Source: an uncultured Oscillibacter sp.
GTDB lineage: Bacteria > Bacillota > Clostridia > Oscillospirales > Oscillospiraceae
Length of the DNA stretch: 64,000 nucleotides
NCBI GenBank assembly: GCA_947365245.1
Contig: CANAWG010000006.1
Span: forward strand, 1 to 64,000
Direction of reading: 5' to 3'
In this document: positions 6,222 through 47,361 of the stretch, in pieces
Layout of the letters: the number at the start of each line of letters is the position of its first letter
How positions within the stretch are numbered: the stretch's first letter is position 1
Program-made: the position numbers and the translations under genes
The notes under the pieces: generated by a model
What the model was told of the DNA's origin: nothing
Seen by the model: only the letters and a program-made list of their open reading frames with translations
The model's database searches: none

Positions 6222-6232
6222 ATTTCTCCTTT

Positions 6233-8555: not shown

Positions 8556-8599
8556 CGCTTCTCTCTCTTGAATCTATTGTAACTGAGGGTTTAACAAAG

Positions 8600-8645: not shown

Positions 8646-8654
8646 TGTTGGTGC

Positions 8655-8695: not shown

Positions 8696-8940
8696 GGGAG
8701 AAAAGAGGGAAATTCTATGCACCTGCAGGAATACATGTGAGCGTGTCAAACATTCGGAGGAAACCGATAAAGTGTAGACATTGTGTAAAGCGTTTTCTTT
8801 TCAAATACGTAATTCTATATCAGAAAACCGATCAACCACACCAGCAGAGAAGCGGTTGGAAGATTTGGGAGGATTGAACGCCGGGAGGAGATTGTATCTG
8901 AGACAACTCCCTCTCGGCTCGGACAGCGAACACGATCCTA

Positions 8941-9354: not shown

Positions 9355-9372
9355 AAGACATACCACCTTTGT

Positions 9373-10056: not shown

Positions 10057-10074
10057 CTAAATCGTTCCTTTCAA

Positions 10075-10632
10075 TCATTTTGCTGAGATATCGTTCTCCG
10101 CCGGCCAAGCGGCTACGTCTCCTGACAGGCTGGAGCCGCCGGAACAGGAGACGGCCAGCCCCTCGCCTAACGCAGCGTCAGGCGCCAGCTCTGTAATCGC
10201 CGTCAGGCTCTGCCCAAAACCGTCCGCCGCCGCGGGTGTTGCAATACTGGATGGCGTCCGTCCAGGAAACGCCTTCCACAGGGAAATCATCCCCAGTGAA
10301 GGAGCTGGGATTCTCTCCCATGGCAGCCTGATACTCAGCCCGGGTCACTTCATACCGGCTGATATAAAAGTCGCTGAGTGTGACCGTGCGGGCGGTTTCG
10401 TCCTCTGAACGCCACGGCTCTGATTCCGGACTGCCCATCTGGAAAGTTCCGCCGTTTATCAGAATAAATCCCTCTGGCGGCGCGATTTCAGGGGATGTGG
10501 GATCCGCAGGCGCAGCGTCAGCCCGGCTCGGCGTCTGGTTTGTTTCAGAGAGAGCGAAGGGCTCCTCCTGTTCGGCGTCTCCGCATCCCGCCAACGCAAG
10601 CGCCAGCAGGATAATACTGAAATACGCTTCAT
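10075..10632 (-). pseudogene. SUMF1-like/flavodoxin fusion lipoprotein remnant
   Basis: From ATG 10632 the first codons (MKRI) are one frame off from a lipoprotein leader IILLALALAGC, so the signal peptide carries a frameshift. The next frame gives a clear SUMF1/formylglycine-generating-enzyme N-terminus (INGGTFQMGS, SDFYISRYEVTRAEYQAAMG, VEGVSWTDAIQYCN). At a GGC-rich junction near 10240 the reading switches frame to a flavodoxin C-terminus (GFGQSLTAITELAPDA, GDVAAWPAENDISAK) ending at 10075. The centre of both domains is deleted. It implies an ancestral lipoprotein combining a SUMF1 domain with a flavodoxin. Confidence 0.72.
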
Positions 10633-10660
10633 GTGCTTTCCAACTCCTGTTTCATACGAA

Positions 10661-10690
10661 GAGGCCCCACCCCAGCCGGGATGGGGCCTC
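10661..10690 (-). terminator. Terminator after the SLH-flavodoxin gene
   Basis: GAGGCCCCA and TGGGGCCTC form a nine-pair stem directly downstream of the 10707 gene on the minus strand, followed by TTCGT rather than a long T run. It separates that gene from the SUMF1-flavodoxin remnant. Confidence 0.6.
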
Positions 10691-10706
10691 TCTCAGCATC
10701 CAATAT

Positions 10707-11861
10707 TTAAGCCGCGGGGGTCAGTGCCAATCCCAGGCCGTTCACCCAGGTCTCCACCGCGGAGCGGGAGGCCCCGCCGCTGAACCTCTGGCCATACAGC
10801 CATGTGGCGGAACCGGCGAGAGTGTGGAGATTTGCGGCGCTGGAGCCAATGCCGCTGCTGCCGGAGGTGCAGAAAGGCACAATGGTCTTGCCGCTCAGGT
10901 CATAGCTCTCCAGGAAAGTATAGATGATCTTCGGAGCCTGCCCCCACCAGATGGGGTAGCCCAGGAAAATCACATCATACTGCTCCATGTTGTCCACACT
11001 GCCGGAGACAGCGGGGCGGGCGTTCGGATCGTTCTGCTCCTGATTGGCGCGGCAGTCGGCATGATTGTAGTTCAGGTCGGCGCTGGTGTAGGGCTGCTCC
11101 GGCACGATCTCATAGAGATCGGCGTCCAGAATGGCGTCCAGGTGGTTTGCAATAGCTTCCGTATTGTTGGTGGCGGAGAAATAAGCGACCAGGACCCTGC
11201 CGCCGGCAGAGGAGGTATCCGGCGTTTCGGAAACGGCCGGGGTTTCGCCGCCGGAGGAACGGTTCATGTACTGATACAAAGCGGAGACGATCTCCACGCG
11301 GGCGGCGGGAGCGGCGGGGTCAAAGCGGCCATCCTCCCGGCCCGCCATGATGTTGTTGGCTCTGGACCAGTCCACGGCGGTCTGGGCATAGCCGGAAATG
11401 GCGCCGTCGTCTGTATAATCCTCAGCGGAGGCGTCCGGGCTCCCCGCCCAGCGCCAGAGAATGGCAATCACCTGCTGGCGGGTCACATTGTCGCCCACGC
11501 CGAAACGGCCGTCCTGGTATCCGTTGATGAGCCCGTTGTCCGCCGCCCAGCTGGCGGCGTCCACATAGTAAGCCCCTGCCGCCACATCGGAAAAACGGGT
11601 GGTGCCGGAGGCGGCGGGACTGCCTGCCGCGCGGTAGAGGATCGCGGCAAGCTGCTGTCGGGCCACATTGTCATGGATTCCGAAGCGGCCGTCGTTGTAG
11701 CCGTTGACGTAGCCCTGCTCCGCCGCCCAATTGACCGCTTCGGCGTAGGACGCACTGTCAGGCACATCGGAAAAACGCTCCGCTGCAAAGGCCGGGACGG
11801 CCAGGGACAGCGACAGAACCAGGGTCAGGAGCAAAGCTCCAAATCGTTTCAGATTTTTCAT
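10707..11861 (-). CDS. SLH-anchored surface flavodoxin
   Basis: 384 residues. A Sec signal peptide (about 1-26, ending PAFAA) is followed by three SLH repeats (about 28-205; RFSDVPDSASYAEAVNWAA, RFSDVAAGAYYVDAASWAA, and a third around YAQTAVDWSRANNI), a short linker and a flavodoxin domain (about 220-384). The domain shows VLVAYFSATNNTEAIANHLD, YDVIFLGYPIWWGQAPKIIY and KTIVPFCTSGSSGIG, so the FMN-binding loops are intact. SLH repeats bind pyruvylated wall polymer, placing a flavin protein on the cell surface. ATG 11861 follows AAAAAGGAGATC. A remnant of a similar gene lies just upstream. Confidence 0.92.
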   Translation of the reverse strand: MKNLKRFGALLLTLVLSLSLAVPAFAAERFSDVPDSASYAEAVNWAAEQGYVNGYNDGRFGIHDNVARQQLAAILYRAAGSPAASGTTRFSDVAAGAYYVDAASWAADNGLINGYQDGRFGVGDNVTRQQVIAILWRWAGSPDASAEDYTDDGAISGYAQTAVDWSRANNIMAGREDGRFDPAAPAARVEIVSALYQYMNRSSGGETPAVSETPDTSSAGGRVLVAYFSATNNTEAIANHLDAILDADLYEIVPEQPYTSADLNYNHADCRANQEQNDPNARPAVSGSVDNMEQYDVIFLGYPIWWGQAPKIIYTFLESYDLSGKTIVPFCTSGSSGIGSSAANLHTLAGSATWLYGQRFSGGASRSAVETWVNGLGLALTPAA

Positions 11862-11899
11862 GGTTGTGATCTCCTTTTTGTTTTTTATTTAATTGATCG

Positions 11900-12237
11900 T
11901 CAGTGTGCGGCGTTTTCCAGCCACTCGCTGATTTCCGCTCTGTCATAGGAGGAGCAAGTGACCTCCGGGCTTTCTTTGATGACGCGGGTGGAAGCGAGCT
12001 TTGCAATCGCGCTGATGGGCTGGCCGAGGTATCCGCCCCCATACAGAGCAGAAAGGGACGATGGTCTTGCCGCTGAAGGCGTACTGATCCACCGCCTGGG
12101 ACGCCTCCGTTTTTGCCATGTGGAAGCTGCCACCTGCTGCGCTGTGCCGGGTTTCGTCAGAACTGCGCTCCACCGGCCGGACCGCCCTCGATCCGGTAGA
12201 GGGCCGCGGCAAGCCGCGCTCGGGTCAGGCTGTTCAT
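11900..12237 (-). pseudogene. SLH-flavodoxin remnant
   Basis: An SLH scrap (MNSLTRARLAAALYRIEGG) from 12237 is followed in other frames by the second half of a flavodoxin: YAFSGKTIVPFCS, then after a further shift LYGGGYLGQPISAIAKLAST and AEISEWLENAAH, with TGA at 11900. The FMN-binding N-terminal half and signal peptide are missing. It is the third decayed flavodoxin in this island. Confidence 0.72.
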
Positions 12238-12253
12238 GTTTCCCGCCCCCTTT

Positions 12254-12790
12254 CTATTTCAGGGAAAGGCCCAGCTGATAGGCTTCCTGGGGAAACCGTG
12301 AGCGTTCAATGTCGGGACGGGCGCCGCAGCCCACCGCCAGTACCCGGCCGCTGTCCTGCCAGCGCATATACCGGGCCAGCGTCTCGTAGTGGGCTGTCAG
12401 GGCCGACATGGTCCAGTCGCTGCTGTCGTAGGCGGTTGCCATCAAAAACACTTTCTTGCCGCCGGTCAGCTTGCAGCTGTCGGCGTAGAAGCGGTCAATC
12501 ACTGTTTTGATCTGGGCGGAGAAGCCGAAGTAGTACAGCGGCGTCACCAATGCCACCGCCTGGGAGGCCAGCAGCTCCGGCATCAGCTTCTGCATGGCGT
12601 CTTTCTGGACGCAGGGGGCCGCGCCGATCCCGCAGCGGTTACAGCCCAGGCAGGGAGCTGCCTGCTCAAAGGCGGCATCGAAGCGGAAGGTTTCCCATCC
12701 GGCCTCCCGCGCGCCCCGGATAAACTCATCCGCCAGCAGAGCGGAGGTTCCCTTTTTGTGAGGGCTTCCTGTGATAATGGTTGCTTTCAT
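12254..12790 (-). CDS. NADPH-dependent FMN reductase-like flavodoxin-fold protein
   Basis: 178 residues, cytoplasmic (no leader). It starts with the flavin-phosphate loop ATIITGSPHKKGTSALLADE, followed by CLGCNRCGIGAAPC, a Cys cluster typical of iron-sulfur flavoproteins and relatives, and VTPLYYFGFSAQIKTVIDRF. Members reduce flavins, quinones or metal complexes with NAD(P)H. It sits 11 bases after the tautomerase gene on the same strand and so is likely under the LysR-type operator at 13060. Confidence 0.88.
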   Translation of the reverse strand: MKATIITGSPHKKGTSALLADEFIRGAREAGWETFRFDAAFEQAAPCLGCNRCGIGAAPCVQKDAMQKLMPELLASQAVALVTPLYYFGFSAQIKTVIDRFYADSCKLTGGKKVFLMATAYDSSDWTMSALTAHYETLARYMRWQDSGRVLAVGCGARPDIERSRFPQEAYQLGLSLK

Positions 12791-12801
12791 ATCCCCCCTC
12801 C

Positions 12802-13011
12802 TTAAATACCGGGCTTCACGAACAGGATCTTATCGGGAAATTGCTTCATGGACTCGGCCCACTTCTCCTTGGGGATGTCCTGGACGGACACAGAGACAAA
12901 CTTGGGATCCATGCCCAGCTCTCCCGCCAGGAACGCCTGCGTTTTCGATGCAAGAGCCTGTTTCGTCTCATTATCCCGTCCCGGAATCATCGTAATGGCG
13001 ATATGCGGCAT
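12802..13011 (-). CDS. 4-oxalocrotonate tautomerase-family protein
   Basis: 69 residues. The true start is ATG 13011, giving Met-Pro-His-Ile, so that Met removal exposes the catalytic N-terminal Pro1. The ORF-track start is an upstream TTG that would bury it. AAGGAGG lies seven bases before this ATG. Tautomerases of this size act on enol/keto forms of aromatic breakdown products or as promiscuous decarboxylases. It is the first gene after operator copy 2, suggesting induction with the flavin reductase. Confidence 0.88.
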   Translation of the reverse strand: MPHIAITMIPGRDNETKQALASKTQAFLAGELGMDPKFVSVSVQDIPKEKWAESMKQFPDKILFVKPGI

Positions 13012-13059
13012 ATTCAAAACCTCCTTGATGGGTTCATTGTAGCGAAAAAGAATATAAAT

Positions 13060-13104
13060 GTAAAATACCTAATCCGGATCATTTATCATGCCTTTTCTGC
13101 ATGA
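13060..13104 (-). promoter_or_regulatory. LysR-type operator/promoter, copy 2
   Basis: GTAAAATACCTAATCCGGAT, then TCATGC-N7-GCATGAT; perfect CATGC/GCATG arms in T-N11-A form. It lies 49-93 bases upstream of the tautomerase start, the same geometry as copy 1 to its gene. Confidence 0.78.
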
Positions 13105-13169
13105 TAGGAAATGATACGACAGCTGTCAAAAGATTGCTGCCGTACCATTCGCAAAGAAAGGAAGTACTA

Positions 13170-13943
13170 TTAACCGGCCAGTCCGAGCCGGGCCAGCCAG
13201 TCCGTCACGTCATCCGCCGCCTGGGGAGAACGGCTGTCACGCAGCGAGAGGCCCTCCAATACCGCGGCATCCGGTTCCGCATTTTCAATGGCTTGAATCG
13301 TGCCGGAAAAACCGCTGCCGCCCGAGGTGACGAAAGGAATGATGGTCTTGCCGCCGAGGTCGTATTCATCCAAAAAACTGTAAACTGCCATAGGCATATC
13401 GCCCCACCAGTTGGGGAAGCCCAGAAATACTGTGTCGTAGCTGTCTAAATTGTCAATATGGGATATCAGTTCCGGGCGGGCATTGGCGCCTTTCTCCGTC
13501 TGCCCCACGTCGATGGTGTCGTTGTAGTTGTCCGGGTACTGTTCCGCCGTCAGGATGGAGAACAGCTCGCCGCCGGTTGCCTCGGCGATCATATCCGCTA
13601 CAAGTCCGGTATTTCCGGTAAGAGTGCCGTCCGTTCTCAGCTGGATGCTGGCGGAAGTGGAGGCGTCCACGTCGTCAGACAGAGGAGCGTTTTCCCCATA
13701 GGCAAAGTAAACAATCAGGACACCGTTTCCGGCATTCCCCGCCGGCTCGGTCGTTTCGGGGGTATCCGCAGGGGCGGAAGTATCGGGCGGCTCTTGGGGC
13801 TGGGAGCTGCCGGGTGTTTCTTCAGGCTGGGATGCTGCAGGCGCAGAGGGGACGCCGCCGCTCGCCGCGCTCCGGCCGCCTCCACAGGCGGTCAGAGCGC
13901 AGCAAAGGACAAGGACCAACAAAAAAGAGAGGGAATTTTTCAA
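13170..13943 (-). CDS. Flavodoxin lipoprotein
   Basis: 257 residues. A clear lipobox, ALTAC with Cys20, is followed by a Ser/Pro/Glu-rich spacer to about residue 70, then a flavodoxin domain with VLIVYFAYGENA, SYDTVFLGFPNWWGDMPMAVYS and KTIIPFVTSGGSGFSG. It would be tethered to the outer face of the membrane. Translation begins at TTG 13943 behind AAAGGAG. It directly follows a cyclophilin-like remnant on the same strand, both downstream of operator copy 3. Confidence 0.9.
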   Translation of the reverse strand: MKNSLSFLLVLVLCCALTACGGGRSAASGGVPSAPAASQPEETPGSSQPQEPPDTSAPADTPETTEPAGNAGNGVLIVYFAYGENAPLSDDVDASTSASIQLRTDGTLTGNTGLVADMIAEATGGELFSILTAEQYPDNYNDTIDVGQTEKGANARPELISHIDNLDSYDTVFLGFPNWWGDMPMAVYSFLDEYDLGGKTIIPFVTSGGSGFSGTIQAIENAEPDAAVLEGLSLRDSRSPQAADDVTDWLARLGLAG

Positions 13944-13955
13944 GCAAAAGCTCCT

Positions 13956-14142
13956 TTACTGAACGATTTCAGATGTAACCTTTCCGATGGGATAGATCCG
14001 CATGGTCAGATTGGGATTGCCGGACTGGCTGTAAAAGATGGCGGCGGTGTTGTTGCCGGGGCAGTAGGTGATGTATCTTCAAAGCGGAGCCGGGCGACAA
14101 ACTGCCGGGCCATGCCGCTGTGAGTAATAAGATTCGTTTCAT
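13956..14142 (-). pseudogene. Cyclophilin-like domain remnant
   Basis: ATG 14142 has a good site (AAGGAGGAACC) but reads MKRILLLTA and then leaves frame. Another frame gives ITYCPGNNTAAIFYSQSGNP and PIGKVTSEIVQ, the C-terminal half of the bacterial cyclophilin-like fold, ending at TAA 13956. The rest has been deleted. The same fold occurs twice in the lipoprotein at 54940. Confidence 0.65.
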
Positions 14143-14215
14143 CTATGGTTCCTCCTTACTGCCGCCGGTTCTCTCCCCGCCGGATGCGGTCATTCTATCC
14201 GAAAGCAAAAAGAAT

Positions 14216-14261
14216 GTAAAATACTTATTTTGAATTATTTACCATGCTTATTATGTATGAT
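14216..14261 (-). promoter_or_regulatory. LysR-type operator/promoter, copy 3 (divergent region)
   Basis: GTAAAATACTTATTTTGAAT, then CCATGC-N7-GTATGAT, one mismatch in the right arm. It lies between the minus-strand flavodoxin unit and the plus-strand LysR gene, the classic place for a LysR autoregulatory site. Orientation matches copies 1 and 2. Confidence 0.75.
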
Positions 14262-14342
14262 AAAATAAGAACGCCGGCTTGACATGATCCTTTAAACCGC
14301 AGATAATAGAATAGAAAACAGGCATAGAGAGGTGTTCATGAT

Positions 14343-15227
14343 ATGGATATTCGATTGTTAGAATACTTCCTGGCAGTGGCAAAATACGGGAATATTACCC
14401 GCGCTTCAGAGCAGCTCCACGTCACCCAGCCCACCATCAGCCGCCAGCTGATGGACCTGGAGGAGACGGTGGGGACGCCGCTGCTGATCCGGGGCAAGCG
14501 GCAGGTGACGCTGACGGAAGCGGGCGTCCTGTTCCAGCAGCGGGCGGAGGAGATCGTGTCCCTGATGGAAAAGACCATGCGGGATGTGATCGGCCAGAAC
14601 GACCTGTTGGGCGGGACTGTCACCATTGGATGTGTGGAGACCCGTGCGTCCCGGATACTGCCGAAAGCGTTGAAAGGGTTTTCAGAGCAGTATCCCAAGG
14701 TGCAATATGAAATTTACAGCGCGGACGGGGACGACATCCGGGAGAAGCTGGATCTGGGCGAGCTGGACTTCGGCGTTCTGGTGGAGCCGGTGGAGTCCGC
14801 CAAATACGACTTTTTCCGTCTGCCCTACTGGGAGACCTGGGGGGTGCTGATGCGGAAAGACGATCCGCTGGCCCGGAAGCCATGCCTTGAAAAAGAGGAC
14901 GTCCTGCCGCTCCGCCTGATTATGCCCCGGCGGGAGATCGTACAGGATCACATTGCCGGCTGGTTTGGCGTGGAGCGCGGACAGCTGAACGTATTTGCCA
15001 GCCATAACCTCATCAATAACGCCGCCCTTTTGGTGGAGGCGGGCCTGGGCTGTGTGGTCTGCACCGGGGGCTGCTTTGAAATACGGGGCGGGGAAAACCT
15101 GCGTTTTGTCCCCCTCTCCCCGGAGCGGACCACCGGCCATGTGCTGGCCTGGAAAAAGAACCGGGTGTTCCACTCGGCGGCCAGCCGGTTCCGGGACTAT
15201 ATTCGGGAGACGGAAGCCGCGAAATAA
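14343..15227 (+). CDS. LysR-family transcriptional regulator
   Basis: 294 residues, the normal LysR length. An N-terminal winged HTH (MDIRLLEYFLAVAKYGNITR, ASEQLHVTQPTISRQLMDLE, about 1-60) precedes a periplasmic-binding-protein-like effector domain from about residue 90. Redox-responsive LysR proteins often use Cys pairs; Cys residues here include those in GLGCVVCTGGC, but I cannot say they sense anything. It is divergent from the flavodoxin lipoprotein with operator copy 3 between them, and upstream of an alcohol dehydrogenase-flavodoxin-DUF4405 unit. It is the natural candidate to bind the three repeated boxes. Confidence 0.93.
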   Translation: MDIRLLEYFLAVAKYGNITRASEQLHVTQPTISRQLMDLEETVGTPLLIRGKRQVTLTEAGVLFQQRAEEIVSLMEKTMRDVIGQNDLLGGTVTIGCVETRASRILPKALKGFSEQYPKVQYEIYSADGDDIREKLDLGELDFGVLVEPVESAKYDFFRLPYWETWGVLMRKDDPLARKPCLEKEDVLPLRLIMPRREIVQDHIAGWFGVERGQLNVFASHNLINNAALLVEAGLGCVVCTGGCFEIRGGENLRFVPLSPERTTGHVLAWKKNRVFHSAASRFRDYIRETEAAK

Positions 15228-15306
15228 TACAATTCAGGCATGATAAGCCATTCAATCAAAGCATTAGACTATTAAACTGTTTTGACTTATGATAGTGCCA
15301 AGGGTA

Positions 15307-15347
15307 GAAAAAACCGGCAGACGGGGTGGCCCGCTGCCGGTTTTCTG
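15307..15347 (+). terminator. Terminator or attenuator between LysR and alcohol dehydrogenase
   Basis: GAAAAAACCGGCAG pairs with CTGCCGGTTTTC, followed by TGTCT. It ends the LysR transcript. A possible promoter (TTGACT, 17 bases, TAGAAA) overlaps its left side, so transcripts for the next operon might begin at the hairpin itself. Confidence 0.7.
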
Positions 15348-15375
15348 TCTATTTGATCATCAGGGAGGCAATCAA

Positions 15376-16554
15376 ATGAGCTATATGATGTACGCACCCA
15401 CCCGTGTTTTGTTTGGAGCCGGACAGCTGAACCGCCTGCATGAGCAGGCTTTGCCGGGGAGGAAAGCCCTGCTGGTCATCACCGGCGGGAAATCCGTCCG
15501 AGAGAACGGAGCGTTGGACCGCACTTTGGAGGAGCTGGCCCATGCTGGAGTCCAGACTGTCTTGTTCGACAAGGTCCAGGCCAATCCGATGAAATCCACT
15601 GTTATGGCCGGGGCGAAGGCGGCCCGTGAAAATGGCTGCGACTTCGTTGTGGCCCTTGGCGGCGGCAGCGTCATGGACGCGGCAAAGATCATGGCGTTGA
15701 TGGCGGCCAACGAGGGCGACCTGTGGGATTACGTCAGCGGCGGCACCGGAAAGGGACAGACGCCGCCCAATGCGCCCCTGCCCGTGGTCTGCATCACCAC
15801 CACCGCGGGGACGGGCTCTGAGGTAGACCAGTGGGGTGTGGTCAACAATGAGGAGACCCAGGAGAAAATCGGCTGCGGCGGGCTGGACAGCCTGTTCCCG
15901 GTGCTGTCGGTGGTGGACCCGGAGCTGATGGCCTCCGCCTCCGTGCCGCCCCAATTCACCGCCTATCAGGGCTTTGACGCGCTGTTCCACTCCACCGAGG
16001 TCTATATCGGCAAAATGGCAAATCTTATGAGCGACATGGCGGCGTTGACGGCCATCGAAAATGTGGGCGGCTATTTGGTTCGCGCGGTAACGGACGGCGG
16101 CGACAAAGAGGCGCGGGAGCATGTGGCTTTTGCCAACACCATGTCCGGCTACTCTATGGTCACCGGCTGCTGCACCAGCGAGCACTCCCTGGAGCACGCC
16201 ATGAGCGCCTGCCACCCCAATCTCCCCCACGGCGCGGGCCTCATCATGATCTCTCTGGCCTACTATCAGCACTTCGTGGACAAGGGCTGCTGCCCGGAGC
16301 GGTTTGTCCGCATGGCAAAGGCGCTGGGAAACGCGGATGCGCAGAAACCCCAGGACTTCATCTCAGCCCTTGCCCAGCTGCAAGGGGCCTGCGGCGTGGA
16401 TGCCCTCAAGCTGTCCGACTATGGCTTCAAGCCGGAGGAGTTTGACGGCATTGCCCGCAGCGCCAGAGAGACGATGGGCGGGCTGTTCTTTGCCGACCCC
16501 TGCGAGCTGACCCACGAGGACTGCGTGGAGATCCTGAAAAAATCTTATCGCTGA
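15376..16554 (+). CDS. Iron-containing alcohol dehydrogenase
   Basis: 392 residues, cytoplasmic. The GGGSVMDAAKIMAL dinucleotide-binding stretch lies near residue 97, and the metal-binding region has FDALFHSTEVYIG and HSLEHAMSACHPNLPHGAGL. Group III Fe-ADHs of this type reduce aldehydes with NAD(P)H, and YqhD-like members detoxify reactive aldehydes under a neighbouring transcription regulator. I start at ATG 15376 behind CAGGGAGGC; the ORF-track start at 15289 lies upstream of the terminator hairpin. It leads a three-gene operon with a flavodoxin and a DUF4405 protein. Confidence 0.92.
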   Translation: MSYMMYAPTRVLFGAGQLNRLHEQALPGRKALLVITGGKSVRENGALDRTLEELAHAGVQTVLFDKVQANPMKSTVMAGAKAARENGCDFVVALGGGSVMDAAKIMALMAANEGDLWDYVSGGTGKGQTPPNAPLPVVCITTTAGTGSEVDQWGVVNNEETQEKIGCGGLDSLFPVLSVVDPELMASASVPPQFTAYQGFDALFHSTEVYIGKMANLMSDMAALTAIENVGGYLVRAVTDGGDKEAREHVAFANTMSGYSMVTGCCTSEHSLEHAMSACHPNLPHGAGLIMISLAYYQHFVDKGCCPERFVRMAKALGNADAQKPQDFISALAQLQGACGVDALKLSDYGFKPEEFDGIARSARETMGGLFFADPCELTHEDCVEILKKSYR

Positions 16555-16565
16555 GAGGTGCGGTC

Positions 16566-17045
16566 ATGTCGAAGAAAAGTTTGGTCCTGTATTACTCCTG
16601 GTCGGGAAATACCCGGAAAATAGCGGAACTGATTGCTCAGAAAACCGGCGCCGATCTACGGGAGCTTCAGCCGGAAAACGCCTATCCGCAGAATTATAAT
16701 GATGTACTCACCCAGGCCAAACGGGAGATTCAGGGCAAGTGGTATCCCGCCCTGCGTCCCATCGACATGGACTGGAGCGACTACGGGACTGTCTACCTGG
16801 GGACCCCCAACTGGTGGTCCTCCATCGCCCCGCCTGTGGCCTCCTTTTTGAACCAGGTCATGCCGACAGAAAAAGCCATCGCTCCTTTCTGCACCCACGG
16901 CGGGGGCGGTGCGGGACATATTGCCAAGGATATTGCAAAATTCTGTATCGGCTGCGATGTTCTGCCCCTGCTGGCCGTTCAGGAGGACGGAGGGACAAAT
17001 GCGGGAAAGTTGGTGGATCAGTGGCTGAAACAAATCGGAGCGTAA
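16566..17045 (+). CDS. Cytoplasmic flavodoxin
   Basis: 159 residues with no leader. VLYYSWSGNTRKIAELIA forms the phosphate loop; YGTVYLGTPNWWSSIAPPVA and APFCTHGGGGAGHI form the isoalloxazine loops. It would carry electrons in the cytoplasm, unlike its exported paralogs here. It starts 11 bases after the alcohol dehydrogenase (GAGAGGTGCG site) and its stop overlaps the open frame of the DUF4405 protein, suggesting coupled translation. Confidence 0.92.
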   Translation: MSKKSLVLYYSWSGNTRKIAELIAQKTGADLRELQPENAYPQNYNDVLTQAKREIQGKWYPALRPIDMDWSDYGTVYLGTPNWWSSIAPPVASFLNQVMPTEKAIAPFCTHGGGGAGHIAKDIAKFCIGCDVLPLLAVQEDGGTNAGKLVDQWLKQIGA

Positions 17046-17068
17046 AGAAAAAACAGGCTCTGCGCCAC

Positions 17069-17734
17069 TTGGCAGATTTTGCGATGACGCTCCTTGTGCC
17101 GGCCTTGATGGCCTACTCTGTCACCGGACAGATGGTTCATGAGTGGATGGGTGTCGGGATGCTTGTGCTGTTTCTCCTCCACCACGGACTGAACGCAGCG
17201 TGGCTGCGCTCTTTGACCAAGGGCCGCTATACACCGCTGAGAACACTTCAAACCGCATTGGTATTTCTCCTGTTTGTCAGCATGGCGTCGCAGATTGTCA
17301 GCGGCTTTGCTATGTCTCGCTGTGCCCTGCCATTCTTGAACATTCCTATTTCCACATCCACCGCCCGCCTTTTGCATTTAGCCTGCGGGTATTGGAGTTT
17401 TCTTCTCATGGGACTCCACCTGGGTCTGCATTGGAGCGCGTTTCTTGGCTTAGGCAGAAAATTGAGAGGGGGCCAGCCCCTCCCCTCAGCGGGACGCTGG
17501 TGCCTGAGAATACTGGCTGGAGCGGCGGCGACATGGGGTGCAATCTGCTTTATCCGGCAGAATATCGCGGACTATCTGTTTCTGCGGACGGAGTTCGTAT
17601 TTTTTGACTATGAAAAGTTCCCTTTGCTGGCACTGGGAGAGCTGGCCGCAATCATGGCGCTGTGGACACTGGTTGGGCATCGGCTTCAGCGGCTGGCGAT
17701 GCGATACGGAAAGTCATCGCACAGCAAAGACTAA
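17069..17734 (+). CDS. DUF4405 membrane protein (cytochrome b-like)
   Basis: About 221 residues with around five to six hydrophobic segments. Conserved His motifs in the membrane (VTGQMVHEW, LFLLHHGLN, LLHLACGYWSFLLMGLHLGLH) resemble the haem-ligand pairs of b-type cytochromes; haem binding is inferred. The start is unclear. The frame is open back into the flavodoxin gene, and by similarity to the copy at 46567 the protein should begin VKKKQALRHL at a GTA next to the flavodoxin stop; TTG 17069 and ATG 17084 are the usable starts. It could link cytoplasmic reductant to exported flavodoxins. Confidence 0.8.
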   Translation: MADFAMTLLVPALMAYSVTGQMVHEWMGVGMLVLFLLHHGLNAAWLRSLTKGRYTPLRTLQTALVFLLFVSMASQIVSGFAMSRCALPFLNIPISTSTARLLHLACGYWSFLLMGLHLGLHWSAFLGLGRKLRGGQPLPSAGRWCLRILAGAAATWGAICFIRQNIADYLFLRTEFVFFDYEKFPLLALGELAAIMALWTLVGHRLQRLAMRYGKSSHSKD

Positions 17735-39653: not shown

Positions 39654-40838
39654 TCACAAGCATTCTTTTAAAATTTCAAAAATCTCGTCATGGCTGACGC
39701 CTGCCTGCCCAGTCTGAATCAGGTTGCAGCTGTCAGAAATCTCCCGCAGCACGGAATCTGTCAGCAGCTTTTCCGGCTCCCCTTTCATCCGCAGGTCACG
39801 CAGTCGGAGGGGCAGCCCGCATTTTGCAATAAAGTCCGCCAGGGCTTCCACACCGGCCAGGGCCAGCTCCCGCTCCGTCTTTCCCTCGCCGGAAACGCCC
39901 CAGACATTGACGGCGAGCCGGGCAAATTTCTCCAGAGCCTTTTCGCATACACGGCGGTAGAGGGGAGGGTGGATCACCGCCAGCCCCTGGCCATGGCCGC
40001 AGTCGGTGTAGGCTCCCAGCTGATGTTCAATCTGATGGGCCTGGAAGTCCGTCGCCCTGCCGCACTTCAAGATGCCGTTCTCCGCCATGGCGGAATCCCA
40101 CATCAGATTGCTGCGGGCGGTGTAGTCGTCGGGATTTTGGAGCAGAGCGCGCATACCGCGGATGGTGTTTCGCATGACCGCCTCCGCTATATCGTCGGAC
40201 ACATTGTCCCGGTCAGCCCTGCCGAAGTAGGTCTCCATGGCATGGCTCAGGGTGTCGAAAGCCCCGGAGATCACCTGGGAGAAAGGAACGGACAGGGTAT
40301 ACTCCGGGTCCAGCACGGCAAAGCGGGGGGCCGCGGCGAAGATGCCGGTCTTGATTTTCTTTTCCTCATGGGTGATGACCGCGCCGCCGTTCATCTCGGC
40401 TCCGGTGCCGGAGGCGGTGACCACCGCCCCCATGGGAATGGGCGGCACAGAGGGGAGCCGGTGCCGGACCAGCTCCATGTCCCATATATCCTCCTCCAGC
40501 ACCGCCTGGGCCGCGACGACCTTGCAGCAGTCGATGACGGAGCCGCCGCCCACCGCCAGAATAAAGTCGATCCTTTTCTCCCGGGCCAGCGCCGCGCCCT
40601 CCTGGACCTTGGCGTAGGTGGGATTCGGAGTGATGCCGCGGAACTCAGTGACCGCCTTGTCCGCCGCACGGAGGATTTCCATCATCTCGTCATAGACGCC
40701 GTTGCCCCGGATGGAACCTCCTCCGTAAGCCAGCATCACATTGGGGCCGTAGGCGCTCAGGGCCTTGCCCAGATGTTCTTTCGCCGCGCCTCTGCCAAAC
40801 AGCACCTTGGCGGGGCACTCATATACAAAGTTTTCCAT
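39654..40838 (-). CDS. Iron-containing alcohol dehydrogenase (BdhA-like)
   Basis: 394 residues. VGGGSVIDCCKVVAAQAV binds the cofactor, and FDTLSHAMETYFG plus HQIEHQLGAYTDCGHGQGLA carry the metal ligands. It resembles NADH-dependent butanol dehydrogenases, which act on broad aldehydes. ATG 40838 lies 12 bases after the SLH-flavodoxin stop, making it the last gene of the long minus-strand redox operon. It is a different subgroup from the Fe-ADH at 15376. Confidence 0.92.
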   Translation of the reverse strand: MENFVYECPAKVLFGRGAAKEHLGKALSAYGPNVMLAYGGGSIRGNGVYDEMMEILRAADKAVTEFRGITPNPTYAKVQEGAALAREKRIDFILAVGGGSVIDCCKVVAAQAVLEEDIWDMELVRHRLPSVPPIPMGAVVTASGTGAEMNGGAVITHEEKKIKTGIFAAAPRFAVLDPEYTLSVPFSQVISGAFDTLSHAMETYFGRADRDNVSDDIAEAVMRNTIRGMRALLQNPDDYTARSNLMWDSAMAENGILKCGRATDFQAHQIEHQLGAYTDCGHGQGLAVIHPPLYRRVCEKALEKFARLAVNVWGVSGEGKTERELALAGVEALADFIAKCGLPLRLRDLRMKGEPEKLLTDSVLREISDSCNLIQTGQAGVSHDEIFEILKECL

Positions 40839-40849
40839 TTACGTCTCCT

Positions 40850-42526
40850 TTATTGTCCCGCCTGGGACATGACCCGATTGATCCAGGGACGGATGCCGCT
40901 TTGACTGTTGGCGGTCAAGGCCTCCGCGATGACCGCGCCGGAGGCCAGCTCCCGGAAGATATGCAGGCTGTTGTCAATGGGGCTGTAGGAGCTGGTGCAG
41001 AAAGGGGCAACGACCTTGCCGCTGAAATCGTTCTCCGCCAGGAACGTGGCGATCATGGCAGGGGCGTCGTCCCACCAGATGGGATAGCCGACAAAGATCA
41101 CACCGTACTTGTCCAGATCATCGGCGTCCACGGTAATGTCCGGATGGGTCCCATTGTTGATCTCCGCCCGGGCCTCATCCTGCAGGCTGCCGTAGGGCTG
41201 CGCCCGTTTGATCTCAGCCAGATCGCCGCCGGTGTACTCCGCGATCTGCCGGGCCACCCCTCGGGTGGTGCCGGTCTGGGAGAAGTAGGCCACCAGGACG
41301 CTTTCCCCGGCGGTGGAATCCGGCGCGGGAAGCGGCTGGCTCTCTGCGGCCTTGGTATAGCCCAGCTCCCGCACCCAGTCTGCAATATCGCCCTTGGCCT
41401 CGGACACGCTGCTGCGGGAGACGGAGAAGCCGCTGCGCTCCACCTGAGCGCCGGGCTCCTGGGAGGCCACGGTGCCGATGGTCCCGGCAAAGCCGCTGCC
41501 GCCGTGGGCGGTGAAGGGAATCACGGTCTTGCCTGATAGATCGTAGGTGTCCAGAAAGCTGTAGACGGGCATGGGCAGGTCGGCGTTCCAGATGGGGTAG
41601 CCCAGAAAGATCACATCATAGTCGTCCAGATTGGAAATGCTGGCGGACAGCTCAGGCCGGGCGTTGGCCCGCATCTCGGCGGCGGCGAAGTCCAGCAGGG
41701 CCTGATGCTCGCCGGGGTAGGTCTGCACCGTTTCGATGGCAAAGACGTCGCCGCCGGTTTCCTCCCGGATCGTGTTGGCGATGAACTCCACGTTGCCCAC
41801 CACCTGGCCGTTCTCCACCACCCGGCTGGCCTGAGCCACCGCGTCCACACCGGAGGTCTCAGGAACGGTGAAATAGGCGATCAGAATTTTGGTGCCGCCG
41901 GCGGCAGGCTGAGACAACCGGTCATAGTTCATAAGGGCCGCCGCGATCTGGGCGCGGGTGGCGGGGCTTTGCGGCTGGAAAGCGCTTCCGGAAACAGCCG
42001 CCACAATGTCGTTGGACGCCGCCCAGTTGACGGCGGAAACGGCATAGGAGGAGACGGAGGCGCTGTCGCTGAGGGACGCGGCTCCCGCCGAGGGGCTGCC
42101 CGCATAGCGCCAGAGGATCGTAGTCATCTGCTCCCGTGTGACGGGATTGTTCGCGCGGAAGGTGCCGTCGCCGTACCCGGTGATAATCCCGTTGGCGTTG
42201 GCCCAGCGGACCGCCTGGGCATAGTAGGCGGTTTCCGGCACATCGGAAAAGGCGGCGGACCCGGCAACGCCGGGGCTTCCGGCGGCGCGGTAGAGGATTG
42301 CCGCCATCTGGCCTCTGGTGGTGGCGGCGTCGGGGGCGAAAGCGGCGGCGGAGGTCCCATTCATGATGCCCTTTTCCCGGACGTAGGCCACCGCCCCGGC
42401 GTACCAGGCGTCAGCGGCCACGTCGGAAAAGCCGGTGTCCTCCACCGCGGCGAGGGAGGGAATGCTCAGTGACAGCGCCAGCACCAAGACCAGCGCCAGG
42501 GAAAGCAGTCTTTTGTAATGTTTCAT
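40850..42526 (-). CDS. SLH-anchored surface protein with two flavodoxin domains
   Basis: 558 residues from ATG 42526 (AAGGAGAAACC). Order: signal peptide (1-27, ending PSLAA), three SLH repeats (about 32-205), flavodoxin A (about 213-385; KILIAYFTVPETSG, YDVIFLGYPIWNADLPMPVY) and flavodoxin B (about 400-558; VLVAYFSQTGTTRGVARQIA, YGVIFVGYPIWWDDAPAMIA). Domain A has an insert and a VPETSG loop like the lipoprotein at 46642; domain B has the canonical TGTT loop. Two flavin domains tethered in the wall suggest electron relay between different FMN sites. It lies between an FMN reductase-like gene and an alcohol dehydrogenase. Confidence 0.92.
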   Translation of the reverse strand: MKHYKRLLSLALVLVLALSLSIPSLAAVEDTGFSDVAADAWYAGAVAYVREKGIMNGTSAAAFAPDAATTRGQMAAILYRAAGSPGVAGSAAFSDVPETAYYAQAVRWANANGIITGYGDGTFRANNPVTREQMTTILWRYAGSPSAGAASLSDSASVSSYAVSAVNWAASNDIVAAVSGSAFQPQSPATRAQIAAALMNYDRLSQPAAGGTKILIAYFTVPETSGVDAVAQASRVVENGQVVGNVEFIANTIREETGGDVFAIETVQTYPGEHQALLDFAAAEMRANARPELSASISNLDDYDVIFLGYPIWNADLPMPVYSFLDTYDLSGKTVIPFTAHGGSGFAGTIGTVASQEPGAQVERSGFSVSRSSVSEAKGDIADWVRELGYTKAAESQPLPAPDSTAGESVLVAYFSQTGTTRGVARQIAEYTGGDLAEIKRAQPYGSLQDEARAEINNGTHPDITVDADDLDKYGVIFVGYPIWWDDAPAMIATFLAENDFSGKVVAPFCTSSYSPIDNSLHIFRELASGAVIAEALTANSQSGIRPWINRVMSQAGQ

Positions 42527-42546: not shown

Positions 42547-43089
42547 TCAAACCTTGCGGCCCATCTCATAGGCCTCTTCCATAGCGGGATTGCCCTCGAT
42601 CTCGCCCCGCTGCCATGCGTTGGCCCCATAGATCCGGCCCTTCACCTTGGCGTTTGGAACGCAGTCGGTCAAGCCTTTCAGGCCGTCCATGGTCCGCTCC
42701 AGGGCGGGTTGATCCTCGGCGGCGGTGACGATGAAATAGAACTCCTTGCCCGCCAGGGTCTGGTCGTAGTAGCACGCCATCGTCCGGTCGATCAGCGTTT
42801 TCATCTGCGCGGTCATCTGGTAGAAGTAGACCGGGGTGGACAGCACGATCACATCCGCCGCCCCCATCTTCTTCAAAATCTCCGCCATATCGTCCTTCTG
42901 GACGCAGACGCCGGTCTTCTTGCAGGCGTAGCAGGCGGTGCAGAAATTCAGCCTTTTCTCCTGCAGGCGAACCAGCTCCACCGTGTGTCCGGCCTCCTCC
43001 GCGCCTCTGGTAAACTGTGCGCAGAGGGTTTCCGAGTTTGCGCCTTTCCGGGGACTGCCGGACAGAATCAGAATTTTCTTTCCCATCAT
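42547..43089 (-). CDS. NADPH-dependent FMN reductase-like flavodoxin-fold protein
   Basis: 180 residues, cytoplasmic. ILILSGSPRKGANSETLCAQ is the flavin loop; FCTACYACKKTGVCVQKDDM is a Cys cluster; STPVYFYQMTAQMKTLIDR completes the family pattern. It is a paralog of 12254. Start ATG 43089 (GGAGGTCAATC), with a second ATG next to it. It sits between EFR1 and the SLH-flavodoxin gene with gaps under 25 bases. Confidence 0.9.
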   Translation of the reverse strand: MMGKKILILSGSPRKGANSETLCAQFTRGAEEAGHTVELVRLQEKRLNFCTACYACKKTGVCVQKDDMAEILKKMGAADVIVLSTPVYFYQMTAQMKTLIDRTMACYYDQTLAGKEFYFIVTAAEDQPALERTMDGLKGLTDCVPNAKVKGRIYGANAWQRGEIEGNPAMEEAYEMGRKV

Positions 43090-43102: not shown

Positions 43103-43882
43103 TTATGATTGATCTGTTTGGGTTTGGTTGTTGGCTTGGATGATCTCGTTGACTGTGATATACGGGTTGCGGTAGCGGGCGTTGGGATTTTTCTCCGGGA
43201 TGTTCAGCTGAACCGCTTTCTGCGGACAGAGGTGGGCGCAGGCCAGGCAGGTCTGGCAGTTTCCGGGAATGTGGACCGCCCTGCCGCCCTCCATGCGGAC
43301 GGAGGCGGAGGGGCAGACCCTGGCGCACAGACCGCAGCCGGTGCAGTCGTCCGTCACCCGAAGCAAGTGCTGCCATGCGTCGGGAGGAAGATGTTTCATC
43401 CCCTCCAAAAACTGCGCGTGAGCCGCCCGGTCCGCGTCCGTCACGGGGGCAATCATCTTCCTGCGGCTTTGAATATCCGCGGCGATCACCGCCAGGTGTT
43501 CCTCCACCCTCTTGTCCAGCTTGATCTGCTCCTCCATATCAAAGCCGGGGAGCCAGTTGTCCGCCATCATCAGCACATTGATGTAGCTGAGCCGGATCCC
43601 GCACGACCTGCACAGCAGATATGCCAGCTCCGCGGCTCCGCCGTGGCGGCTGCCGTAGGTGAGGACCATGTAGAAGTAGTCCGTGTGGAATTTTGCCCTC
43701 CGCAGGAACTCCTTGACCATGTGCGGCACCTCATGTCCATAAATGGGTGCCACGATGCCGATCTGCTCCGCGGAAAAGTCCAGCTCTGTCCCCCGCATCA
43801 CCTGGGGGATGCTCAAAGGATTCTTTTCGATCCCCTTTGCCGCGTAGAGGCTGTTTCCGGTTCCGGTAAAATAGAATAGCAT
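43103..43882 (-). CDS. EFR1-family flavodoxin-ferredoxin
   Basis: 259 residues: an N-terminal flavodoxin-like domain (MLFYFTGTGNSLYAAKGIEK) and a C-terminal double [4Fe-4S] ferredoxin (CTGCGLCARVCP and CQTCLACAHLCP, about residues 183-225). All eight cluster Cys are present. It would pass low-potential electrons between ferredoxin-type clusters and flavin in the cytoplasm, a plausible electron entry point for this operon. ATG 43882 follows AAGGAAGGAG. Confidence 0.93.
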   Translation of the reverse strand: MLFYFTGTGNSLYAAKGIEKNPLSIPQVMRGTELDFSAEQIGIVAPIYGHEVPHMVKEFLRRAKFHTDYFYMVLTYGSRHGGAAELAYLLCRSCGIRLSYINVLMMADNWLPGFDMEEQIKLDKRVEEHLAVIAADIQSRRKMIAPVTDADRAAHAQFLEGMKHLPPDAWQHLLRVTDDCTGCGLCARVCPSASVRMEGGRAVHIPGNCQTCLACAHLCPQKAVQLNIPEKNPNARYRNPYITVNEIIQANNQTQTDQS

Positions 43883-43901: not shown

Positions 43902-44846
43902 TCAGCGCAGCTGATTGCTCAGATAATCCAAAATGTACTCCATGGCCAGATCGAAATTGCCGCCGCTGAACCCATGGCCAGCACCCTCGATCATCCTCAG
44001 CTCCGCCGCGGGGTACGCCTCTGCGGCTCTCTGGGAATAGGACAGGTCCACCGTCCCATCCCGGTCGCCGTGAAGAATCAGGACATCCCTTTCGTAGGCT
44101 GCAACATCCGCATAGACATCGTAATCCCAGACGTCCTCCACATAGCGGCGGCCGACGGTCAGCCAGGAGAAGAAGGATACCTGCTCCGGGACGCTCTCCA
44201 GCGATGAAAACTGCGCCCTTGCGTTTTCCGGGATGCAGAAGGCGGGGTACAGGAGCATCATCCCCCGGACCTCCTCCGGGTGGGCCGCGCCGGTCATGGC
44301 GGACACCATCCCGCCCTGGCTGGTCCCCATCAGGAAAACACGCTCCTCGTCCACATAGTCCAGCGACCGGATCATCGCCAGAACCGCCTCCAAATCGGCT
44401 TTCTCGGTGAAAACCGACATCTCCAGCGGGGAACCGTCACTGCGGCTTGAATTGCTGCCGCCCCGGAAGTCATAGCAGTAGACCACGAAGCCCTTTTGCA
44501 CCAGGGCCTGGGCGTAGGGCGCGCCGACGGCGTGGGTTCCGCCGTAGCCGTGGGAGAAGATCACGGCGGGCAGGGGCTCGCCGGCTCCATCGGGGATGTA
44601 GATCTCGCCATAGATGGCGCGGCCGTCCACCTGGGCGGGCAGCTCCTGGGTGGTATAGGAATAACTCAGGCTGTCCCAGTCGATGGCGGCATCCTGTATG
44701 CCGTCTGCCGCGGCGGGTACGGCTGTTTCCGCCCGCTGCGAACCGGGAGCCTCCGCCGGGGCGGCCGGCGGCTGCGATCCCCCGCCGCATCCGGCCAGGC
44801 TGAAAGAGAGCACGCAGCTCAATAAAAATGTCCATACTCTATGCAT
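43902..44846 (-). CDS. Alpha/beta hydrolase lipoprotein
   Basis: 314 residues. A lipobox LAGC (Cys20) and a Pro/Ala-rich linker lead into an alpha/beta hydrolase: oxyanion region FSHGYGGTH, nucleophile elbow GTSQGG, acid in HGDRDGTV and catalytic His in GAGHGFSG. It resembles dienelactone hydrolase/acyl-esterase-type enzymes. It would act outside the membrane. It is 15 bases downstream of apbE. Its link to the flavin proteins is unknown; it could release or modify an ester substrate. Confidence 0.9.
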   Translation of the reverse strand: MHRVWTFLLSCVLSFSLAGCGGGSQPPAAPAEAPGSQRAETAVPAAADGIQDAAIDWDSLSYSYTTQELPAQVDGRAIYGEIYIPDGAGEPLPAVIFSHGYGGTHAVGAPYAQALVQKGFVVYCYDFRGGSNSSRSDGSPLEMSVFTEKADLEAVLAMIRSLDYVDEERVFLMGTSQGGMVSAMTGAAHPEEVRGMMLLYPAFCIPENARAQFSSLESVPEQVSFFSWLTVGRRYVEDVWDYDVYADVAAYERDVLILHGDRDGTVDLSYSQRAAEAYPAAELRMIEGAGHGFSGGNFDLAMEYILDYLSNQLR

Positions 44847-44861: not shown

Positions 44862-45896
44862 TTATGTTTCTTGGCGAACGACCTGCACCTCCCGCCCCGC
44901 CCCTGGGGAAAAGGCGTCGGCCAGTCCCTCGGTCACATAGATCGTCCGATCCTCTGTCAGCAGGATCATCTCAAAATCCCGGTGTTCCCGCCAGTATTGG
45001 ACGGCTTTATCCAGTCCCATGACAAAAAGAGCGGTGGAGAGGGCGTCGCAGCGTTTGCTTTCATCACTGACAACAGCGGTCTGTACCAGGCCGCTCCGGG
45101 CGGGTGCGCCGGTGGCGGGGTCCAGGATGTGCCAGTACCGCTCCCCGTCCCCGCCCACAAAGAATTTTTCATAGCCGCCGGAGACCACCACACTCTGGTC
45201 CGCGATTTCCAAAACGCCCAGATTCCCCTCGCTGTCCGGGTCCCGGACGCCCACCCGCCAGAAGGAGCCGTCCGGCTTGGTCCCGACGGTCAGGATATTG
45301 CCGCCGAAGTCCAGCAGGGCGGATGTGACACCGTTCTCCCGCAGAACAGCGGCGGCTTCATCGGCGGCATAGCCCTTGCCCACAGCGCCCAGGTCCAGCT
45401 GCATCCCGTCCGGGACGGTCAGAGTGGCGTCCTGCAGAGAAACCCTGGTATAATCCACCTTTTCCAACAGATGATCAAGCTCCTCCCGCTCCGGGATTTG
45501 AAAGCTGTCCGTGGTAAAGCCCCAGGCGGTCAGCACCGGGTAGAGGGTAGGCTCCAGCGATCCATCGGTCCGCCGCGCCATATCCAGCGCATAGCGGACC
45601 AGATTCGCGGTGTCCCCGCTGACGGCCACCGCCGCCCCTCCGCTGTGATTGGCGGCATAGATCTCGCTGTGTTCATCCGTCGCCGACCAGAGGCTCTCCA
45701 GCTCCCGGACGCGGTTTTGGGCCTGCTCCAGCGCCGCTTCCGCGTCTTCGCCGTAAGCGGTCAAATTAAGGTAAGTATCCATTCCAAACAGTCCGGCGCC
45801 GCCCTCGCCGTTCGGGGCGGCGCCCTCTTGGCTCCCGCAGGCCGCGCAGCTCAGAAGCGGCAAGACTGCGAGAATGGCGGCAATCAGACGTTTCAC
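44862..45896 (-). CDS. apbE: FAD:protein FMN transferase ApbE, lipoprotein form
   Basis: 344 residues starting at GTG 45896, which overlaps the stop of the DUF4405 frame. The leader MKRLIAAILAVLPLLSCAAC carries a lipobox at Cys17 or Cys20. ApbE motifs are visible: MDTYLNLTAYG, LGAVGKGYAADEA, LLDFGGNI, YWHILDPATGAPA and SKRCDALSTALFVMG. Known ApbE enzymes sit outside the membrane and attach FMN from FAD to Thr/Ser of target proteins such as RnfG/NqrC or FMN-binding domains. No such target domain is present in this window, so the local substrate is an open question. Confidence 0.94.
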   Translation of the reverse strand: MKRLIAAILAVLPLLSCAACGSQEGAAPNGEGGAGLFGMDTYLNLTAYGEDAEAALEQAQNRVRELESLWSATDEHSEIYAANHSGGAAVAVSGDTANLVRYALDMARRTDGSLEPTLYPVLTAWGFTTDSFQIPEREELDHLLEKVDYTRVSLQDATLTVPDGMQLDLGAVGKGYAADEAAAVLRENGVTSALLDFGGNILTVGTKPDGSFWRVGVRDPDSEGNLGVLEIADQSVVVSGGYEKFFVGGDGERYWHILDPATGAPARSGLVQTAVVSDESKRCDALSTALFVMGLDKAVQYWREHRDFEMILLTEDRTIYVTEGLADAFSPGAGREVQVVRQET

Positions 45897-46567
45897 GGCT
45901 CCCCGGCTCCCTTTCTATGTTTCCCCGCCAGAGATGCGGCGGCACAGGCAAGCAGGGCGAACAGCGCCATCATGCAGAGATGATCCCAAAAATACAGGGC
46001 CGCCGGGCGGTCAAAATCGAATACAATAAATTCACTGCGGAGGGTCAGGTACTGCCAGATCTGATGGGTCTATACAGCGCAGGCTCCATACAGGCCCGCC
46101 GCCGCCCCGACGCACCGGGACAGCGCGCCCGCCCTGCCGCCAAGCCTGCGGCGGAGCGGCGCCGTTACCGCGCCCCCATGCAGGCCCAGGTGGAACCCCA
46201 TCAGAACAAAGCCCCAATAGGAGGCCAGCATATGCAGCCGCCGGGCCGCGGCGGCGCTGCCCAGGCCGGGCAGAAAGGTGAACACATAGCGGGAGAGCCG
46301 GATTCCGCTGAACATCAGAGCCAGCAAATCCGCCAGCAAGAGAACATCCACAACCGTCTGGAGGATGCGCCGGCCGCTGTATCTCCCTTTCCCCAGCATC
46401 CCAAGCCAGTGCCGATTCAAACTATGGTGGGCGAGAAAGAGCAGAAGCATCCCGGCTCCCACCCACTCATGCACCGCCTGCCCGGTCACCGGATAGGCCA
46501 TCAGCACCACCAGCAGAGCGGTCATGAGTACGTCAATGGTGATCTTCGCTTTTTGTTTCGCTTTCAT
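45893..46567 (-). pseudogene. DUF4405 membrane protein interrupted by an in-frame TAG
   Basis: ATG 46567 starts MKAKQKAKITIDVLMTALLV and the frame carries the His motifs VTGQAVHEW, LFLAHHSLN and LHMLASYWGFVLMGFHLGLH, as in the protein at 17069. A TAG at 46070-46072 stops it after 165 residues, but the same frame continues without error (HQIWQYLTLRSEFIVFDFDR, YFWDHLCMMALFALLACAAA) to TGA at 45893, matching the full-length paralog. So one nonsense codon removes the last segments. It may be a recent mutation, a sequencing error or readthrough. Confidence 0.8.
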
Positions 46568-46641: not shown

Positions 46642-47361
46642 TCAGCTGAGGATCTCCAAGGCCCAGTCCATGGCCTCCTGCGCAGCGTTTGGAACACTGT
46701 TCCGGGAGATCGAGAGCCCGTCTGTGAGAACGGCGGCGTTTGGCTGGAGCTCCTGAATGGTGGAGACCGTCCGGGAAAAGCCGCTGCCGCCGTGGGTCAC
46801 AAAGGGGACGATGGTCTTGCCGGAAAAATCATAGCTTTCCAGGAAAGTGTAGAGCGGCATGGGCAGGTCGGCGTTCCAGTTGGGATATCCCAGGAAGATC
46901 ACGCTGTAATCGTCCGGATTCTCAATTTCGCCGGACAGCTCCGGACGGGCGTCCCGCCGCAGCTCGTCATAGGCGAAATCCAGCAGCGGCTGGTGCGTGC
47001 CGGGGTACTCCTGCACCGTTTCAATGGCGAACAGGTCGCCTCCCACCGCCTGCTGGATGGCCTGGGCGATAAACTGGCAGTTCCCCACCACGCCGTCCTC
47101 CGTGGCCACCCGGCTGGCGTTGGCCACGGTGTCCGTGCCGTCTGTCTCCGGTACGCCGAAATAGGCGATCAGGATGCCGCCGTCTCCGGCGGCCGCGGGG
47201 ATGGCGTCAGGCGTTCCGGCATTGCCGGACAACTCCGGGGCAGCTGCGGAACCGGAGTCCGGAGCATTCGGCGGACTGCCGGGGGGATCCGTTTGCCCGC
47301 CGCAGGCCGCCAGGGAGAGCATCAGGGCCAGCGTCAATACCAGAGAGAGTTTCTTTTTCAT
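46642..47361 (-). CDS. Flavodoxin lipoprotein, first gene of the redox operon
   Basis: 239 residues. Lipobox LAAC (Cys20), a linker to about residue 60, and a flavodoxin domain with ILIAYFGVPETDGTDTVANA, YSVIFLGYPNWNADLPMPLY and KTIVPFVTHGGSGFSRTV. It is closely similar to domain A of the SLH protein at 40850, which has the same VPET loop and inserted segment. The regulator-box promoter 47402-47455 lies directly upstream. Confidence 0.92.
   Translation of the reverse strand: MKKKLSLVLTLALMLSLAACGGQTDPPGSPPNAPDSGSAAAPELSGNAGTPDAIPAAAGDGGILIAYFGVPETDGTDTVANASRVATEDGVVGNCQFIAQAIQQAVGGDLFAIETVQEYPGTHQPLLDFAYDELRRDARPELSGEIENPDDYSVIFLGYPNWNADLPMPLYTFLESYDFSGKTIVPFVTHGGSGFSRTVSTIQELQPNAAVLTDGLSISRNSVPNAAQEAMDWALEILS

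Follow-up and report, generated by a model that had tools for sequence, protein, structure and literature searches.

A surface protein with three SLH repeats and two unlike flavodoxin domains from an uncultured Oscillibacter, a likely wall-anchored electron carrier

The locus and its gene neighbourhood

The window analysed here, a stretch of 64,000 nucleotides of DNA from an uncultured Oscillibacter sp., carries on its minus strand a gene for a protein that joins three SLH repeats to two flavodoxin domains, A and B (the SLH-A-B protein, Table 1). The open reading frame starts with ATG, has zero internal stops and is intact, and the ribosome-binding site AAGGAG lies upstream of it. The N-terminus of the product is a signal peptide (MKHYKRLLSLALVLVLALSLSIPSLAA, read by eye), which together with the SLH repeats marks the protein as exported, and Pfam gave three SLH matches (E 1e-34) and two Flavodoxin_4 matches (E 3e-48). 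Anchoring through SLH repeats requires CsaB, a pyruvyl transferase acting on the wall polymer. A profile search placed CsaB above the cut-off in the same genome, so both elements of the predicted anchor, SLH and CsaB, are encoded.

The gene is part of a same-strand run in the order CMD/cupin (47506), lipoprotein flavodoxin (46642), DUF4405 (46070), ApbE (44862), hydrolase lipoprotein (43902), EFR1 (43103), FMN_red (42547), SLH-A-B (40850) and Fe-ADH (39654). The gaps over the last six genes of the run are 11-20 bp, and a sensor kinase and a response regulator are encoded just upstream of the run. The initial annotation had proposed the 46642 lipoprotein as a possible membrane-side partner, and its position in the same tight gene run as a membrane cytochrome agrees with this. 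ApbE (PF02424) is likewise encoded with the domain A protein.

Table 1. Features of the gene run and of the SLH-A-B protein, in gene order (positions in the window)
Feature	Position	Strand	Basis
Flavodoxin lipoprotein, domain A lineage, probable membrane-side partner	46642..47361	-	profile matches, alignment, identity
DUF4405 membrane cytochrome, interrupted by in-frame TAG	46070..46567	-	PF14358; comparison with L072
ApbE, FAD:protein FMN transferase with lipobox	44862..45896	-	PF02424 E 1.4e-81
Alpha/beta hydrolase lipoprotein, same gene run	43902..44846	-	profile match, gene spacing
EFR1-family ferredoxin/flavodoxin protein, same gene run	43103..43882	-	NF038196
FMN_red flavoprotein, 20 bp upstream of SLH gene	42547..43089	-	PF03358; gap
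SLH x3 - flavodoxin A - flavodoxin B surface protein, 558 aa	40850..42526	-	ORF, Pfam and NCBIfam matches, orthologue L041
Three SLH repeats, residues ~31-204, predicted secondary cell wall polymer anchor	41915..42436	-	PF00395, three stretches
Flavodoxin domain A, insert (flavinylation) type	41354..41896	-	NF005389 match above cut-off at these coordinates; PF12682; AlphaFold
Predicted ApbE motif D-A-V-A-Q-A-S, residues 228-234, FMN expected on Ser234	41825..41845	-	D and final S aligned across insert-type relatives
Flavodoxin domain B, canonical phosphate loop SQTGTT, non-covalent type	40853..41299	-	PF12682/NF005501; AlphaFold
Iron-containing alcohol dehydrogenase, 11 bp downstream of SLH gene	39654..40838	-	PF00465; gap

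A TAG at 46070-46072 interrupts the DUF4405 frame. Past this stop the frame stays open for another 58 codons, as far as 45893, and these codons correspond to the C-terminal region of the homologue in Candidatus Intestinimonas pullistercoris (locus L072), which is intact. The TAG could be either a real nonsense change or a sequence error, and because of it the DUF4405 protein made from this gene may be shortened. Another DUF4405, which is intact, lies at about 17.0-17.7 kb of the window. The L072 locus has the kinase, lipoprotein, DUF4405, ApbE and hydrolase genes in the same order, with DUF4405 intact.

Two flavodoxin domains of separate lineages

The description of the protein in the initial annotation, as a surface protein with three SLH repeats and two different flavodoxins, is borne out by the profile matches, the intact reading frame and the separate lineages of the two domains. 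NCBIfam assigned domain A (residues 211-391) to PRK06934 and domain B (residues 408-551) to PRK07116. The sequence identity of domain A is 60% with the 46642 lipoprotein and only 35% with domain B, so the kinship between domain A and the lipoprotein that had been claimed, with a common insert, is right; both carry the beta1/alpha1 insert motif discussed below. In a tree of 36 domains, A falls among exported insert-type flavodoxins and B among canonical-loop ones; the nearest neighbours of B are the B domain of L041, an orthologue of the protein, and L046_B, an exported flavodoxin with a gene of its own. The two domains were therefore united from different lineages and not duplicated in place; an origin by tandem duplication of a single flavodoxin within the protein is ruled out by these separate lineages and by the grouping of B with the separately encoded secreted protein.

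The architecture is not an assembly accident, since an intact orthologue is present in Ca. Intestinimonas pullistercoris (L041, 63% identity over residues 8-554), on another contig than the syntenic L072 cluster. Intact SLH-A-B proteins were found in the window and in L041, and broken remains in L048; a chance or assembly fusion is ruled out by the orthologue and the broken copy. Related arrangements comprise SLH with an A-type flavodoxin (L042 and L045, the former carrying a cyclophilin-like domain in addition), SLH with a pair of canonical flavodoxins (L012, L015), a protein that has two flavodoxins but no SLH (L014) and, in a different Bacillota family, the reverse order SLH-B-A, in which the canonical flavodoxin precedes the insert-lineage one (L080). 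The A/B pairing thus recurs, in L041 and, in reverse order, in L080, which speaks for a benefit of carrying two flavins on a single anchored protein.

The canonical TGTT phosphate loop that had been read in domain B is present as S-Q-T-G-T-T. Aligned with the 4ici and 3klb sequences, domain B keeps SQTGTT, YPIWW and C-T-S, with the ring loop partly altered: the small clade to which it belongs (window, L041, L046) has a conserved ring-side loop C-T-S-[AS]-Y-S-x-I-D-N-S, the usual form being C-T-S-G-[GS]-S-x-I. In domain A the ring-side loops YPIW and HGGSGF are retained, and the phosphate loop has been traded for the insert. The AlphaFold models of the two domains are confident (pLDDT 89 for A, 90 for B). 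The nearest structures to A are 4ici, 4j8p, 3klb and 3edo, and B gave TM 0.83 to 4ici and 0.82 to the FMN complex 3klb, 4J8P and 3EDO being also among its best matches. 3KLB and 3EDO, both FMN complexes, are therefore among the nearest structures of both domains. These four Flavodoxin_4 structures have the same fold as domains A and B, but, unlike the SLH-A-B protein, they are single-domain and without the flavinylation insert. As far as these comparisons go, neither domain has lost all FMN contacts, which the initial annotation had named as the finding that would refute its reading: both are modelled as Flavodoxin_4, have FMN complexes as neighbours and keep their ring loops.

The insert of domain A and its association with ApbE

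Flavodoxins are classically cytosolic, and to our knowledge the recognition of exported, flavinylated members dates only from 2024. In exported Flavodoxin_4 proteins, a beta1/alpha1 insertion holds a Ser or Thr that ApbE loads with FMN, as was proven for two flavodoxins by Huang et al. 2024, and the genes of such proteins are found clustered with apbE and with the gene of the heme-b membrane cytochrome DUF4405 (PMC11334425). A long beta1/alpha1 insertion is common to domain A, the 46642 lipoprotein and the exported flavodoxins at 13170 and 7812. Judged by its sequence, the VPET insert of domain A is this flavinylation insert, and domain A has the sequence traits of the flavinylated Flavodoxin_4 class. 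The initial annotation, which was correct about the two flavodoxins on a wall anchor and about the kinship with the lipoprotein, overlooked this identity of the insert as well as the ApbE and DUF4405 genes alongside. With an insert of this type, domain A would most likely bind FMN covalently and domain B non-covalently.

In the alignment of domain A, the 46642 lipoprotein (D-T-V-A-N-A-S) and relatives from Bacillota, Spirochaetota and Synergistota, the insert follows the pattern D-x-x-[ASTG]-x-[A/S/P]-[S/T]. The textbook D-A-V-S-G-A-[S/T] is found in some relatives (L047, L026), the sequence being D-A-V-S-G-A-S in L047 and D-T-V-S-G-A-S in L052, and the Spirochaetota and Synergistota relatives carry the textbook form. 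The motif of domain A is relaxed, with A-Q-A-S in place of [S/T]-G-A-[S/T]: neither the first S/T nor the G is there, while D, A and the acceptor Ser are kept. Strictly, [S/T]GA[S/T] is not matched by domain A, a departure that weighs against the assignment although it is common in the lineage of domain A. In the AlphaFold model of domain A, the sole low-confidence inner stretch (local residues 23-28) is the motif loop, which may fit a flexible site awaiting its flavin.

Among 111 Flavodoxin_4 domains collected from the loci, 35 have the motif, all of them on exported proteins and 0 on cytosolic ones; export was scored automatically for 29 of the 35 and assigned by eye for the other 6 (cut contigs, broken frames, a TTG start). 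Motif and ApbE occur together in 26 of the 30 genomes with the exported insert lineage. Three genomes without the motif (G498, G486 and G577, 96-98% complete) are also without ApbE, and in one metagenome-assembled genome (G262) the motif is present with no ApbE detected. This co-variation gives a Fisher p of 0.001 with kinship ignored and with the three motif-less genomes not fully independent of one another. A further search for motif-less relatives gave no additional ones. In a fourth ApbE-less genome (G363), an exported canonical-loop flavodoxin is encoded directly before a DUF4405 gene.

It is conceivable that domain A holds its FMN non-covalently as in any flavodoxin, the insert having a structural or docking role and the motif being fortuitous. 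The departure of the motif from [S/T]GA[S/T] speaks for this, as does the persistence of the lineage in ApbE-less genomes with an insert that lacks the motif, from which it follows that the fold can work without covalent FMN. We nevertheless consider this decidedly unlikely: across three phyla, retention of the D and S is almost confined to genomes with ApbE; domain A (GNV) and the 46642 lipoprotein (GNC) no longer have the Thr of the phosphate loop, whereas the motif-less proteins of G498, G486 and G577 keep it (GNT); and flavinylation at this very insert is published (PMC11334425).

A possible electron route through the cell wall

A wall anchor with two unlike flavin domains, one of them very probably with a tethered flavin, looks like a cell-wall relay carrying electrons outward, and we think it likely that the SLH-A-B protein, anchored in the wall, carries electrons by means of two flavins as part of an ApbE/DUF4405 system for extracytosolic electron transfer. 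The protein would be exported unfolded and held on the pyruvylated wall polymer through its three SLH repeats; the neighbouring ApbE would give domain A its FMN through a phosphoester bond to Ser234, which we infer to be the flavinylated residue, and domain B would acquire non-covalent FMN in a flavodoxin site of the ordinary type. Electrons might then pass from membrane quinol to the heme-b protein DUF4405 and to the presumably flavinylated flavodoxin lipoprotein (46642), from there to wall-fixed domain A with its covalent FMN and on to domain B with its non-covalent FMN, and finally to a soluble or particulate acceptor outside. The two-flavin relay suggested in the initial annotation thus remains the most economical reading of two distinct flavodoxins on a wall anchor, while the electron flow itself, with its order, its direction and the external acceptor, is what we infer.

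It is also possible, though we offer this only tentatively, that the relay is specifically a wall-fixed hetero-flavodoxin one, with covalent FMN on one domain and exchangeable FMN on the other, in which the second domain hands over reduced FMN or is tuned to a different potential; the pairing would have arisen at least twice, in both domain orders, with the covalent site gained or lost together with ApbE. Alternatively, the protein could be a wall-bound flavoprotein reductase, in which domain A is the electron inlet only and domain B is an enzyme reducing a specific extracellular substrate (a quinone, azo or nitro compound), without any relay carrier. The conserved ring-side loop peculiar to the domain-B clade suggests a specialised partner or substrate, and FMN_red, nitroreductase-like and Fe-ADH genes are among the neighbours; however, no catalytic residue or substrate pocket was identified, and Flavodoxin_4 proteins of known structure are without established reductase activity in the data used, so that we regard an enzyme of this kind as rather unlikely. 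That the protein is a surface flavin store or a passive wall protein with no role in electron transfer seems scarcely credible to us: neither an acceptor nor an activity is known for it, but a cytochrome, an FMN transferase and a predicted flavinylated lipoprotein are co-encoded in a conserved cluster.

If the SLH-A-B protein is an electron carrier as proposed, the system bears on how Gram-positive gut bacteria move electrons across the wall. Having a tethered and an untethered flavin on one wall protein, together with a non-flavinylated lineage in ApbE-less relatives, it would be a direct system in which to ask why flavins are tethered extracellularly. Flavin-based extracellular electron transfer in Listeria monocytogenes likewise involves a membrane electron source and ApbE-type flavinylation of an extracytosolic lipoprotein (PMC8238504). 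The system proposed here would work alike, with the difference that its carrier is a flavodoxin and its membrane component is DUF4405. Multi-flavinylated FMN-bind proteins with SLH, Rib, FIVAR or LysM domains, for which wall redox chemistry was proposed by Meheust et al. 2021, join wall-binding domains with several flavins as the SLH-A-B protein does, but their flavins are all covalent and carried by FMN-bind domains, whereas here the folds are flavodoxins and one flavin is predicted to be covalent and the other not (PMC8238504). The flavinylated Flavodoxin_4 proteins of Anaerocolumna xylanovorans (SHO45324.1) and Desulfosporosinus lacus (WP_073032509.1), compared by description, resemble domain A in the beta1/alpha1 insertion with an ApbE-like motif, in export and in the ApbE and DUF4405 context, but, unlike for SLH-A-B, neither an SLH anchor nor a second canonical flavodoxin is mentioned for them (PMC11334425). 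SLH is absent from the main text of Huang et al. 2024, the form with SLH and two flavodoxins is not described in the main texts of PMC11334425 or PMC8238504, and nothing relevant on SLH with flavodoxin was found in the literature collection searched. It appears that the machinery is recently published and the pairing of these two flavodoxins on a wall anchor undescribed.

Several further flavodoxin genes were observed. In the ApbE-less genome G577, an SLH-flavodoxin, a motif-less insert-lineage flavodoxin and DUF4405 adjoin (L139, 3796-6422), which is probably a non-covalent version of the same system. A second flavodoxin cluster of the window (5261-17734), resembling the L042/L075 cluster of Pseudoflavonifractor sp. 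60, encodes an SLH-flavodoxin, an insert-type flavodoxin lipoprotein (D-A-S-T-S-A-S), FMN_red, a cytosolic flavodoxin and the intact DUF4405. Its SLH-flavodoxin gene (5261-6332, minus strand) is apparently frameshifted into two ORFs. A weak ApbE fragment (7710-7799, minus strand; profile 151-179, E 8.5e-4) just downstream of an exported flavodoxin is a probable relic, L042 having a full ApbE there. A truncated formylglycine-generating-enzyme-like gene (10178-10594, minus strand) has a full-length Pseudoflavonifractor counterpart with a C-terminal flavodoxin (L042, 14263-15795), and a single 652-aa frame in L042 (11100-13055) joins SLH repeats, a formylglycine-generating-enzyme-like region and a flavodoxin. 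Finally, contig C14 of the Oscillibacter genome itself encodes a lipoprotein (L002, 1492-3258, minus strand) with an alpha/beta-hydrolase-like region and a C-terminal canonical flavodoxin, of which Pfam matched only the flavodoxin part at the cut-off used.
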